From contig DATENU010000024.1 of the NCBI GenBank assembly GCA_035274845.1, positions 1 through 64,000 on the forward strand: DNA of 64,000 nt, written 5' to 3'. The position numbers and the translations under genes were made by a program. Each line of letters starts with the position of its first letter. Position 1 is the first letter of the stretch. Below are positions 29,468 to 33,445 of the stretch, piece after piece. The DNA comes from Chthoniobacterales bacterium. GTDB taxonomy: Bacteria; Verrucomicrobiota; Verrucomicrobiia; Chthoniobacterales; UBA10450. Below the pieces are notes generated by a model. The model was not told the origin of the DNA. It saw only the letters and a list, made by a program, of their open reading frames with translations, and did not search any database.

Positions 29468-30430
29468 GTGGCCGTTCCGCCAAAAAAATCCGCGATCATC
29501 CTGGCGTTCGCCGCCCTTTACCTCATCTGGGGCTCGACTTATCTCGGAATCCTCCTGGCCATTCGTTCCATCCCGCCGCTTCTCATGGCCGGAACGCGGT
29601 TTCTTTTCGCCGGGCTCATTCTTTTTCTGGCCGCGCGGCTGGGCGGCGCGACCCGGTCCAAACCGAGCGAATGGCGAACCGCGCTGATCGTAGGCGCGTG
29701 TCTGCTTCTTTGCGGGAATGGCGGGGTCACGCTCGCCGAGCAATACGTTCCCTCGGGTCTGGCCGCGTTGCTGGTCGCGACCGTTCCGCTTTACATCGCG
29801 CTCCTCAGCTGGCTTTTCGGGATCTCGGAAAAGCCGGGACTCGTCAAAGTGCTGGGTCTCGCCGGCGGCTTTGTGGGCGTGGGCATCCTCGTCGGTCCGG
29901 CGTTGCGTTTTTCGTCCAGCGGCGAATCGCCTCATGCCTGGATCGGGATGACGATCCTGCTTTGCTCTTCGCTCATCTGGTCGGCCGGCTCCCTGTATTC
30001 CCGGGCCGCCCCGCAGCCGGGCTCCCCCTTTCTTGCTGCCGGGCAACAAATGCTTTGCGGCGGCGGCTTGCTCATCGTGGCCGGTCTCGCGACCGGAGAG
30101 TTGCGGCATTTCAATCCGCGCCAGATAACCGCGGTCTCGTTAGGCGCGTTTGTCTATCTCGTCCTGATCGGGGGAATCATCGGCTACGTTTCCTACGCGT
30201 GGCTGCTCCGGCATTGCGATCCGGCAAAGGTCGCGACCTACGCCTACGTGAATCCGATCGTGGCCATCCTGCTCGGCACTTTGTTCGCCAATGAAACTCT
30301 CTCGTTGCGGACGCTCGTCGGGGCGGGATTGATTATCGGCTCGGTCGCGGTTGTAATCATGGCGCAACAGATGAAAGCAAAAGCTTCGCCGGTCCCCGCG
30401 ATCATCGAACCGGCTAATTGTGCGCGATGA
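29468..30430 (+). CDS. EamA/DMT family exporter
   Basis: A 320-residue drug/metabolite transporter with ten predicted helices in two EamA repeats (residues about 8-140 and 155-300). The N-terminal LAFAALYLIWGSTYLGILLAI and GTRFLFAGLILF are typical of YedA-like members. Substrate unknown. The start is GTG 29468. The TGA overlaps the ATG of the ferritin-VIT gene, so the two are coupled. Confidence 0.88.
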   Translation: MAVPPKKSAIILAFAALYLIWGSTYLGILLAIRSIPPLLMAGTRFLFAGLILFLAARLGGATRSKPSEWRTALIVGACLLLCGNGGVTLAEQYVPSGLAALLVATVPLYIALLSWLFGISEKPGLVKVLGLAGGFVGVGILVGPALRFSSSGESPHAWIGMTILLCSSLIWSAGSLYSRAAPQPGSPFLAAGQQMLCGGGLLIVAGLATGELRHFNPRQITAVSLGAFVYLVLIGGIIGYVSYAWLLRHCDPAKVATYAYVNPIVAILLGTLFANETLSLRTLVGAGLIIGSVAVVIMAQQMKAKASPVPAIIEPANCAR

Positions 30431-31602
30431 AAACGAGCGAGCCAGGAGAAAATCCGAAGGCCGAGACGATCGAGGTCATCAAGCGAAACTGGCGCGCGGA
30501 AGTGGAGACCGCGGAAGTTTACCGCGACCTCGCTTCTCGTGAGACAGACGAAAAACGGAAAGGGATTTTGCTGCGGATGGCCGAGGCGGAAGAACGTCAC
30601 GCCCAGCGTTGGGAACAAAAGTTGAAAGACCTCGGTTTGGAAGCGCCGGTTTTGCAGGACACGATCGGCCGGCGTTTCAATCGCTGGTGGAATAAGATCG
30701 CCGGCACCGATATCGCCATCCGCCGGATGGAAGCCGCGGAAGAAAAACATGAAGCGGCGTTTCGCGACCAGCGGGATCGCGCCCTGGCCGGCGAACAGGA
30801 CGTCCAGGAATTTCTGCGCGAGAGCGCGCTGGAGGAAAAGGCCCACGCCCGCGCGCTGAATGCGATGGCGCCACCGCCGGGGCCGCGCACTCTCCTCGAT
30901 TCCATCCTGAAACGCGAACGCTGGCACGGGCGCGGCGGCAGCTGGGTGGCCGACGCGATCTATGGCGTGAACGACGGACTCGGGGCGGTCTTCGGCATTG
31001 TCTCCGGCGTGGCCGGCGCGACCAACAACCAGCAGCATTACGTTCTCATTTCCGGCCTGGCCGGCATGCTCGCTTCATCGCTTTCCATGGGCGCCGGCGC
31101 TTATCTCGCCGCGAAAAGCGAGGCGGAAGTTTACGAAGCGGAAATTGCCCGCGAGAAACGCGAGGTCGAAGAAAACCCGGAAGAAGAGATCGAGGAGATG
31201 TCGCTCTTCTATCAGCTTCAGGGATTCACTCCGGAAGAATCACAGCGCATGGCCGAGCGACTCGCGGAGCAGCCCGACCAGATGGTCCAGGCCATGGCGC
31301 AGCATGAGTTGGGACTTTCCGAACATCACTTTCCGAATCATTGGAAGTCCGCTGCCTCTGCCGCGATCTCGACCGCCATCGGCGCCTTCATCCCGATTAT
31401 TCCCTTCTTTTTCATGAGCGGAATCGAAGCCGTGATCGCCTCATTCGTGGTCAGCATTGTGGCGCACTTTGCCGTTGGCGCGGTGAAGTCTCTGATCACG
31501 ATCCGCTCATGGTGGGCTTCCGGTCTGGAGATGACGGTCGTTGGCGTTATCGAAGCCGTTGTCACCTACGGTCTCGGTCTTGCCTTCGGCGCGATGGCCT
31601 AG
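30427..31602 (+). CDS. Ferritin-like/VIT1 fusion, putative Fe/Mn transporter (MbfA-like)
   Basis: A 391-residue fusion. The N-terminal half is a ferritin-like four-helix bundle with Glu and ExxH ligands (EVETAEVYRDLA; MAEAEERHAQRWE; AAEEKHEAAF; SALEEKAHARAL). The C-terminal half is a VIT1/CCC1 domain (DAIYGVNDGLGAVFGIVSGVAGA; SSLSMGAGAYLAAKSE) with about five helices. The architecture matches MbfA, which exports iron, or iron/manganese carriers. The 3' end (31510-31602) is copied at 31988-32080, 32465-32556 and, degenerate, at 32688-32722, each copy beyond a GIY-YIG cassette or spacer. Confidence 0.87.
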   Translation: MKTSEPGENPKAETIEVIKRNWRAEVETAEVYRDLASRETDEKRKGILLRMAEAEERHAQRWEQKLKDLGLEAPVLQDTIGRRFNRWWNKIAGTDIAIRRMEAAEEKHEAAFRDQRDRALAGEQDVQEFLRESALEEKAHARALNAMAPPPGPRTLLDSILKRERWHGRGGSWVADAIYGVNDGLGAVFGIVSGVAGATNNQQHYVLISGLAGMLASSLSMGAGAYLAAKSEAEVYEAEIAREKREVEENPEEEIEEMSLFYQLQGFTPEESQRMAERLAEQPDQMVQAMAQHELGLSEHHFPNHWKSAASAAISTAIGAFIPIIPFFFMSGIEAVIASFVVSIVAHFAVGAVKSLITIRSWWASGLEMTVVGVIEAVVTYGLGLAFGAMA

Positions 31603-31620
31603 ATCCCGAGGACGGACCCG

Positions 31621-31869
31621 TTACAGCCGCTTTTTTTGAAAAGCGCGCCCGGACGACGATTTCAAATACCGTTCGAGATTCCTGGCTCTATCCTCATCGG
31701 AAAGTGCGATGTACGTCTTGATCCGCCACGGCTTCCATTTTGAGGTATGCGGCACTTCGCCGCGATTGTGCCGAACCAATCTCGAACGGAGGTCGTCGGT
31801 GCATCCGGTATAGAATCGGCTTGGTTCGGTCTCGCTTTGCAACACGTACACGTAGGTAAAGCGTCCCAT
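31621..31869 (-). CDS. GIY-YIG nuclease-like protein, copy 1
   Basis: An 82-residue single-domain GIY-YIG protein (UPF0213/YhbQ-like): YVYVLQS and FYTG are the GIY and YIG strands, followed by LRSRLVRHNRG (Arg and His of the active site), TSKWKPWRIKTYIA, and the Glu in ERYLKSSSGRAF. Such proteins are DNA nuclease-fold enzymes, often of unknown target. ATG 31869 is used; the frame is open further but only into repeat sequence. It runs antisense to, and 18 bases beyond, the VIT stop. It is almost identical to copy 2 (two differences: Ser/Asn and Leu/Phe). Confidence 0.85.
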   Translation of the reverse strand: MGRFTYVYVLQSETEPSRFYTGCTDDLRSRLVRHNRGEVPHTSKWKPWRIKTYIALSDEDRARNLERYLKSSSGRAFQKKRL

Positions 31870-31987
31870 CTGATTAAACTGGCATGCCGAGTCGTAGCTC
31901 GCAGCAACGAATGAGCGATTCGCGCCCGCCTTCGCCAAGGCTACGGCGCGGCAGTCTTCGCGTCCCCCTTGTCTGGCGAGCGAAGAC

Positions 31988-32080
31988 TGGTGGGCTTCCG
32001 GTCTGGAAATGACGGTCGTTGGCGTTATCGAAGCCGTTGTCACCTACGGTCTCGGTCTTGCCTTCGGCGCGATGGCCTAG
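31988..32080 (+). pseudogene. VIT gene 3'-end copy 2
   Basis: Ninety-three bases nearly identical to the end of the ferritin-VIT gene, including the TAG at 32078-32080. It lacks the rest of the gene. It is part of tandem unit 2. Confidence 0.85.
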
Positions 32081-32097
32081 ATCCCGAGACGGACCCG

Positions 32098-32346
32098 TTA
32101 CAGCCGCTTTTTTTGAAAAGCGCGCCCGGACGACGATTTCAAATACCGTTCGAAGTTCCTGGCTCTATCCTCATCGGAAAGTGCGATGTACGTCTTGATC
32201 CGCCACGGCTTCCATTTTGAGGTATGCGGCACTTCGCCGCGATTGTGCCGAACCAATCTCGAACGGAGGTCGTCGGTGCAGCCGGTGTAGAATCGGTTTG
32301 GTTCGGTCTCGCTTTGCAACACGTACACGTAGGTAAAGCGTCCCAT
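32098..32346 (-). CDS. GIY-YIG nuclease-like protein, copy 2
   Basis: Second copy of the 82-residue GIY-YIG protein, with 80 of 82 residues the same as copy 1. It occupies the same position in the second 477-bp unit, between VIT end copies 2 and 3. Both copies retain all motif residues, so neither looks decayed. Near-identity at DNA level implies a recent duplication or gene conversion. Confidence 0.85.
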   Translation of the reverse strand: MGRFTYVYVLQSETEPNRFYTGCTDDLRSRLVRHNRGEVPHTSKWKPWRIKTYIALSDEDRARNFERYLKSSSGRAFQKKRL

Positions 32347-32464
32347 CTGATTAAGCTGGCATGCCGAGTGGTAGCTCTCAGCAACGAATGAGCGATTCGC
32401 GCCCGCCTTCGCCAAGGCTACGGCGCGGCAGTCTTCGCGTCCCCCGTGTCTGGCGAGCGAAGAC

Positions 32465-32556
32465 TGGTGGGCGTCGGGTTGGAAATGACGATCGTTGGCG
32501 TTATCGAAGCCGTTGTCACTTACGGTCTCGGCCTTGCCTTCGGCGCGATGGGATGA
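32465..32556 (+). pseudogene. VIT gene 3'-end copy 3
   Basis: A more diverged copy of the VIT end (GCGTCGGGTTGG instead of GCTTCCGGTCTGG), finishing with an altered GGATGA stop at 32551-32556. It marks the right edge of the 477-bp array. Confidence 0.8.
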
Positions 32557-32566
32557 CCTAGAAGGA

Positions 32567-32675
32567 AATCCCAAATCCCAGGGACCAAATCCCAAGTAAT
32601 TCCAAACGCCCAAATTCCAACTGCGCGGCGAGGGTTCGCTTTGAAACTCATTTGGAGCTTGGGGTTTGATGGTTG
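32567..32675. repeat. CAAATCC-type word repeat with partial hairpin
   Basis: AAATCCCAAATCCCAGGGACCAAATCCCAAG and ATTCCAAACGCCCAAATTCC words are followed by complementary TTTGG/TTGGGGTTTG words. It is a degenerate member of the word-hairpin class, wedged between VIT end copies 3 and 4. Confidence 0.55.
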
Positions 32676-32687
32676 AATGTCTTAAAC

Positions 32688-32722
32688 ACGCTCTCGGTCT
32701 TGCCTTTGGAGCGATGGCGTAA
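32688..32722 (+). pseudogene. VIT gene 3'-end copy 4 (short, degenerate)
   Basis: Reads LGLAFGAMA then TAA (32720-32722), matching the last nine residues of the ferritin-VIT protein with synonymous differences. This is the outermost copy and may be the remnant of the original gene end. Confidence 0.7.
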
Positions 32723-33372: not shown

Positions 33373-33445
33373 TGGAGGTAAGGGGATTCGAACCCCTGAC
33401 CTTCTCATTGCGAACGAGACGCTCTACCAACTGAGCTATACCCCC
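33373..33445 (-). tRNA. tRNA-Ala (anticodon CGC)
   Basis: Acceptor GGGGGTA/TACCTCC contains the G3:U70 pair that identifies tRNA-Ala; discriminator A. D-loop AGCTCAGTTGGTAGAGC, anticodon loop TTCGCAA (CGC, reads GCG) and T-loop TTCGAAT are all present. CCA is not encoded. Confidence 0.95.

Follow-up and report, generated by a model that had tools for sequence, protein, structure and literature searches.

The end of a ferritin-VIT gene is repeated several times around short GIY-YIG nuclease genes in a Chthoniobacterales bacterium, which raises the question of whether these repeats arose by local duplication or were left behind by a mobile element. The window analysed here is the whole 64,000-nt stretch of contig DATENU010000024.1 (positions 1 to 64,000), and the features of the locus are listed in Table 1. 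An initial annotation had reported that the last ~93 bases of the VIT gene recur at 31988 and 32465, with a short degenerate copy ending in TAA at 32722, and that minus-strand GIY-YIG genes of 82 aa and hairpins lie between copies 1 and 2 and between copies 2 and 3; both observations were confirmed. It had also held that the VIT frame remained intact after each event, which was true of copies 1 and 2, the only copies that keep the reading frame, but not of copy 3, which is shifted. The residues Y5, Y15-I16-G17, R25, H29, E62 and N70 of the GIY-YIG protein were invariant in A1, and the catalytic residues were thus present.

Table 1. Features of the VIT gene and its repeat array, in coordinates of the window.
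Feature	Positions	Strand	Remarks
Target gene, rubrerythrin-like ferritin domain and VIT1	30424..31602	+	392 aa, intact, ends with tail copy 1; PF01988 1.8e-67, PF02915 1.1e-6
VIT tail copy 1, fused (functional)	31510..31602	+	true gene end; starts TGGTGGGC
GIY-YIG nuclease gene, unit 1	31621..31869	-	82 aa; PF01541, E 3e-10
Dispersed REP-like palindrome CCGCCTTCGCCAAGGCTACGGCG, unit 1	31926..31948	no strand	
Element-end hairpin, unit 1	31952..31989		arms CAGTCTTCGC / GCGAAGACTG; abuts VIT tail copy 2
VIT tail copy 2	31988..32080	+	1 difference from copy 1 (99% identity)
GIY-YIG nuclease gene, unit 2	32098..32346	-	82 aa; PF01541, E 1e-10
Dispersed palindrome CCGCCTTCGCCAAGGCTACGGCG, unit 2	32403..32425		
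Element-end hairpin, unit 2	32429..32466		arms CAGTCTTCGC / GCGAAGACTG
VIT tail copy 3, displaced, frameshifted	32465..32557	+	94% over 95 nt, 1-nt deletion near start
Unrelated dispersed repeat between VIT tail copies 3 and 4	32561..32687		CCAAATCCC-type ends
VIT tail copy 4	32688..32722	+	34-35 nt, 88%, TAA end at 32722

The tail copies were spaced at 478 and 476-477 nt. When the 491-nt unit was compared with its own genome, the best matches elsewhere were only palindrome pieces of 28-40 nt, and the tail repeats are therefore not a product of chance. The palindrome CCGCCTTCGCCAAGGCTACGGCG, which the first reading had missed along with the MITE-like repeat that separates copy 3 from copy 4, had 11 matches in the genome (at most 3 mismatches), and its reversed control had 0. 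Between the tails, units 1 and 2 were identical at 374 of 383 positions (98%), which indicates that unit 2 arose recently when a single insertion was duplicated in tandem. The initial description of the cassette as self-amplifying was abandoned, as ordinary recombination between the copied tails would account for the doubling; by analogy with the phage nuclease SegB, whose breaks cause tandem amplification (PMC13096335), this recombination was possibly helped by nuclease breaks. Copy 4 did need the separate account that had been called for, because an unrelated dispersed palindromic repeat parts it from copy 3, and it thus records another event. That MITE-like repeat (32561-32687) showed ~13 more partial matches in the genome, some of them inverted pairs ~90-140 nt apart, and the 35-nt VIT end on its far side may be a further rebuilt gene end, left by this repeat. 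A tRNA gene was also present on the minus strand at 33373-33445, ~0.65 kb downstream of the VIT repeats (Rfam match in L011). An assembly error was rejected since the same architecture was seen in many independent assemblies, including that of the isolate Rubritalea marina DSM 17716 (L154), and a mobile group I or group II intron was rejected since the window segment had no Rfam match and seven loci matched only tRNAs.

The VIT gene was present in 43 of 98 relatives, and 30 loci were retrieved for inspection. Among the matches listed, the inspected relatives other than G001, a member of the same genus, had a single VIT end and no cassette; in the same 30 loci and among the matches listed, the tail repeat was absent from every VIT locus except that of G001. 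The empty sites foreseen in the initial annotation were thus found, and their existence excludes the possibility, raised there as a refutation, that the GIY-YIG gene is a fixed, vertically inherited neighbour of VIT. G001 contained exactly one cassette and two VIT tails. Its fused and displaced tails differed at 11 of 90 positions, all 11 differences being synonymous and 0 nonsynonymous, and the similarity stopped at the VIT stop codon. Drift since a local duplication should have altered some amino acids, so the displaced tail of G001 is probably not junk that has drifted in this way. Copy 3 of the window was 87% identical to the displaced tail of G001 and the gene bodies were 88% identical, while the fused tails of the window and G001 were only 79% identical. 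Judging from this comparison of two species over 90 nt, copy 3 is likely the native VIT tail. The fused copy, which had been likened to the product of integrative elements that rebuild 3' ends, resembles a rescue copy that the element carries more than an attachment site of the integrase type. The latter was rejected because only the GIY-YIG gene, and no integrase, lay between the repeats, and because the tRNA breaks described below fell in the anticodon arm or D-loop.

Relatives of the window GIY-YIG protein were found across the phylum in 130 of 388 genomes. A called tRNA gene was located 122-274 nt upstream on the same strand in 19 of 27 window-type loci, and 4 further loci of this set came after uncalled tRNA or tmRNA ends. 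These relatives usually started precisely behind the CCA of a tRNA or tmRNA gene; the commonest junction was CCA followed by GYCTTCGC, and the same junction was found at the window hairpin, where the minus strand reads GGAAGCCCACCA and then GTCTTCGC. The TGGTGGGC that opens tail copy 1 is GCCCACCA on the minus strand, a site that matches tRNA 3' ends and that is preserved on the antisense strand by the VIT codons Trp-Trp-Ala (TGG TGG GC.). A protein gene had been named as the target of the cassette; this is correct at VIT, but tRNA and tmRNA genes are the usual targets of this subfamily and the protein gene is the exception. In the window-type elements at tRNA ends, nothing was broken and the tail copy was absent, in contrast to VIT, where the coding end was cut off and a tail copy was present. 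VIT was the only protein gene for which we found a rescue tail. In L204, L201, L211, L213 and L215, window-type elements had internal direct repeats of 46-127 nt (88-100%), made up of the elements' own palindrome arrays flanking the GIY-YIG gene on each side. In L214, a tRNA-Pro was followed by a palindrome and a 3'-half remnant of the tRNA branch, with a window-type element starting at its CCA, so that two element types were stacked on one tRNA.

It had likewise been anticipated that cassettes would follow other genes whose 3' ends were also copied, and these were found at tRNA genes. In the source genome itself, two other short GIY-YIG genes lay 13-17 nt behind a tRNA-Met(CAT) and a tRNA-Val gene, and a copy of the respective tRNA 3' end came after each of them. 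A survey of the relatives and of 84,980 genomes yielded 75 distinct loci of this tRNA branch, 66 of which had a tRNA gene on the same strand within 150 nt and 0 on the opposite strand. The isotypes were Lys, Met/Ile2, Asn, Ala, Pro, Val, Gly, His, Arg, Thr, Asp, Ser and Glu, and the hosts included Verrucomicrobia, Chloroflexi/Dehalococcoidia, several Patescibacteria, Desulfobacteria, Acidobacteria and Kiritimatiellota, together with a small contig binned as Heimdallarchaeota. The full form was arranged as tRNA nt 1 to ~26, palindrome, spacer, intact tRNA, GIY-YIG gene, palindrome, and tRNA nt ~42 to the end. The anticodon arm was replaced by a palindrome, which was yCCCGm...kCGGGr in most loci and GGTCGCCGCGGCGACA in Pro. 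Ten loci had the reversed order, with the nuclease gene before the intact tRNA, and in these the palindrome may sit in the D-loop. In L099 (1268-2222), divergent tRNA-Met and tRNA-Asn genes each had their own GIY-YIG gene and 3'-half copy, representing two different elements back to back.

Half-tRNA copies were counted only at a copy score of at least 20; copies below 20 were discarded because mismatched-isotype controls revealed that conservation of the D-arm and T-arm yields weak scores. At this threshold, a copy of the 5' half was present in 30 of the 66 tRNA-adjacent loci and a copy of the 3' half in 44, with either copy in 56 loci and both in 18. Palindromes with a stem of at least 7 were found at 27 of 29 and 38 of 43 half-tRNA junctions, compared with 21 of 330 random windows. 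The duplication ran from edge to edge of the tRNA: identity was ~99% within the copies (755/758 in the 5' halves and 1359/1379 in the 3' halves) but only 37% and 35%, respectively, in the 20 nt just outside them. These values bear directly on the main rival to a carried rescue copy, namely transposition that duplicates an exceptionally long target site of 30-100 nt, in which the survivors are those whose duplication spans the rest of the gene. Such a process needs no donor tRNA and would account for the one-sided forms, both intact tRNA-GIY-3' half and 5' half-GIY-intact tRNA, yet it should extend into the flanks, where the similarity instead ended at the tRNA edges and, in VIT, at the stop codon. 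The purely synonymous differences between the G001 tails also speak against it, and we regard it as unlikely.

The palindromes and the position of the breaks were relevant to another rival, in which an integrase or transposase acting in trans integrates at the 3' ends of tRNAs or other genes and the GIY-YIG protein is a passenger or a palindrome-processing factor, as RAYT is for REPs. The 3' ends of tRNAs are classic integrase sites. In addition, the palindromes were dispersed in genomes: one Lys palindrome occurred at 4-24 places per genome, with 0 for its reversed control, and the window palindrome behaved likewise. Since the Lys palindrome was also found at places without a nearby tRNA, it is a dispersed repeat too. 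This rival is nevertheless quite improbable, as the constant gene at these loci was the GIY-YIG gene, and the tRNA branch entered the anticodon arm or D-loop rather than the 3' end. The tRNA isotype also tracked the nuclease tree, with 26 changes compared with 46.3 after shuffling and 0 of 200 shuffles as low, on a tree built from few columns and with weak support. Tyrosine-integrase elements at tRNA genes similarly rebuild the 3' end of their target, leaving a direct repeat, but the elements described here had no integrase, measured only ~0.3-0.5 kb, ended in hairpins and had breaks also in the D-loop and anticodon arm. RAYT is a Y1 HUH transposase. The REP/RAYT system shares with these elements a small gene family tied to dispersed palindromes, with subfamilies each having their own palindrome; it differs in its HUH transposase, whereas the protein here is GIY-YIG, with matches only to PF01541, and the palindromes were found at split genes.

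Homing endonuclease genes are expected to pass through a cycle of gain, decay and loss at fixed sites, and we compared three orthologous tRNA sites among genomes of one genus (G000-G007). The tRNA-Lys site was empty in G000-G004 and G006, where the native promoter immediately adjoined the intact gene. The site was full in G007; the native promoter now preceded a broken 5' half, and the intact tRNA-Lys came after the palindrome and 38 nt of unrelated spacer. This inner copy was the only full-length, near-identical tRNA-Lys(TTT) match in G007. The Ile2/Met site was empty in G002, G005, G006 and G007, full in G003 and decayed in two others, G001 lacking the nuclease and the 3' half and G000 lacking the 5' half. 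Such one-sided forms arise when the full form undergoes deletion between its repeated tRNA halves, and at this site they can therefore be explained without a long target duplication. The Pro(TGG) site was empty in G000 and G003 and full in G005 and G006, whereas the nuclease was decayed in G001 and G002 and mostly gone in G004, and the site held a remnant in G007. In G005, the spacer before the rescue tRNA resembled the native promoter, which is what a local duplication would be predicted to give, and the copying of the promoter region at this site favours the long target duplication. Two local rearrangements were also seen at the Pro site: in G005 (L122) the left part (5' half, palindrome and spacer) was duplicated in tandem, and in G006 (L285) the D-loop of the 5' half contained an extra palindromic insertion.

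These empty, full and decayed states already contradict a plain unequal tandem duplication of the gene end beside a resident GIY-YIG gene without any mobility. Units 1 and 2 of the window are clearly a tandem duplication, and L126 likewise had two tandem units behind one tRNA-Lys in the same layout. As an explanation of the whole, unequal duplication is nonetheless scarcely credible, as it accounts neither for the empty sites in sister species nor for the recurrence at many tRNA isotypes across phyla nor for the palindromes at the break points.

We consider it probable that the cassettes are homing-endonuclease-like mobile elements, which break a gene and bring along a rescue copy of it. Each would be a miniature element with one short GIY-YIG nuclease gene and palindromes at its ends, and would spread as free-standing homing endonuclease genes do. 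The window subfamily would normally insert immediately 3' of the CCA of tRNA or tmRNA genes and would here have used the antisense GCCCACCA in VIT. Because this insertion would sever the last 30 codons, a coding-equivalent tail is needed; it would have been brought by the element, or acquired with the event, and fused in frame, with the native tail displaced to the far side. Recombination between the tail copies would later have doubled the unit. In the tRNA branch, the native gene would be interrupted in the anticodon arm or D-loop, each half being capped by a palindrome, and the intact tRNA held beside the nuclease gene would replace the broken gene. The GIY-YIG protein presumably cleaves the DNA of empty alleles and so drives the movement of the element; double-strand-break repair would then copy the element, and the rescue copy, putatively of donor origin, would arrive along with it. 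As the halves differ so little from the rescue tRNA, a recoded donor copy is unprovable in the tRNA branch. The rescue copy should itself be a substrate of the predicted nuclease unless the flanks decide; one idea is that different flanks spare this copy, although the promoter-like spacer at the Pro site weakens it. Cleave-and-rescue was designed as an engineering strategy, and to our knowledge its natural form is known only from fungal mitochondria. With somewhat less than even confidence, we suggest that these elements form a distinct class of prokaryotic mobile elements in numerous bacterial phyla and perhaps also in archaea, a naturally occurring selfish element of the cleave-and-rescue kind whose own GIY-YIG nuclease breaks an essential, often single-copy tRNA gene, whose palindromes replace the anticodon arm and whose complete intact tRNA is the antidote.

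The fungal mitochondrial counterparts, the mORFs, were first described in Allomyces and occur in atp6, atp9, cox2 and nad3; according to the available part of their description (PMC3630166), an endonuclease ORF (GIY-YIG in atp9) lies behind a gene whose 3' end has been replaced by a carried copy. The inner gene end is foreign and the outer end is native, the latter being displaced downstream with differences that are almost all synonymous. At VIT, too, the 3' end is duplicated on both sides of the endonuclease ORF with the inner copy in frame, and the tail identities in the two species, over 90 nt, would fit a foreign inner end and a native outer one. The mORFs differ in being mitochondrial and mostly LAGLIDADG ORFs of several hundred bp, whereas the elements here are in bacterial chromosomes; palindromes are undescribed in that part of the source, and the mORFs carry no more than the end of a gene and in no case an entire tRNA gene (PMC3630166). 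The GIY-YIG nuclease SegB of phages T4 and T6 is encoded among tRNA genes, which it cleaves internally at the motif RAWTSGAAC, a match to the T-arm, but its gene has ~220 codons and belongs to a phage tRNA cluster (PMC13096335). Around T4 segB we found no half-tRNA copies or rescue tRNA (best partial match score, 10). Among 50,697 phage records there was no close homologue of the GIY-YIG protein, and viral contigs contained one weak relative. By analogy, the strategy would resemble that of the mORFs and the enzyme that of SegB. The rRNA insertion sequences of CPR bacteria also involve homing endonucleases spread through essential RNA genes in overlapping taxa, but those are mostly intron-like and LAGLIDADG (PMC11270868), while here there was no Rfam intron and the gene was replaced rather than spliced. 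Open-licence PMC text yielded no account of this element, which may be described elsewhere; its anatomy, the rescue of a whole tRNA and the phyla involved appear to us to be new.

In this compact and apparently undescribed prokaryotic form, the gene at stake is a tRNA that the cell cannot lose. The persistence of selfish nucleases at essential genes, the escape of a rescue copy from its own nuclease, the reason why split or partial tRNA genes litter genomes, and the nature of dispersed palindromes linked to GIY-YIG genes can now be tested. For annotation, half-tRNAs beside 'GIY-YIG nuclease family proteins' can be read as element ends. Other GIY-YIG subfamilies were also observed. Related short GIY-YIG genes in Actinomycetota (L161, L165, L171, L176 and L180) had no tRNA nearby and formed a separate tree group, possibly a non-mobile or differently targeted branch. 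A third subfamily, HYVYVLRS...GLYIGYS (L078, L100, L104, L107 and L125), had CCGCGTAAAAGGCTTCGCCTCACGCGG-type palindromes on its flanks. The FW/FYVYI-type genes (L058, L059, L063, L074, L085 and L116) were flanked by inverted dispersed repeats, TGTCATTCCGAGCGnAGnCGAGGAATCTC or GTCATCCCGAGnnnnGCGAAGGACCTC, and sat just after gene ends, which looks like a nuclease-palindrome pair.
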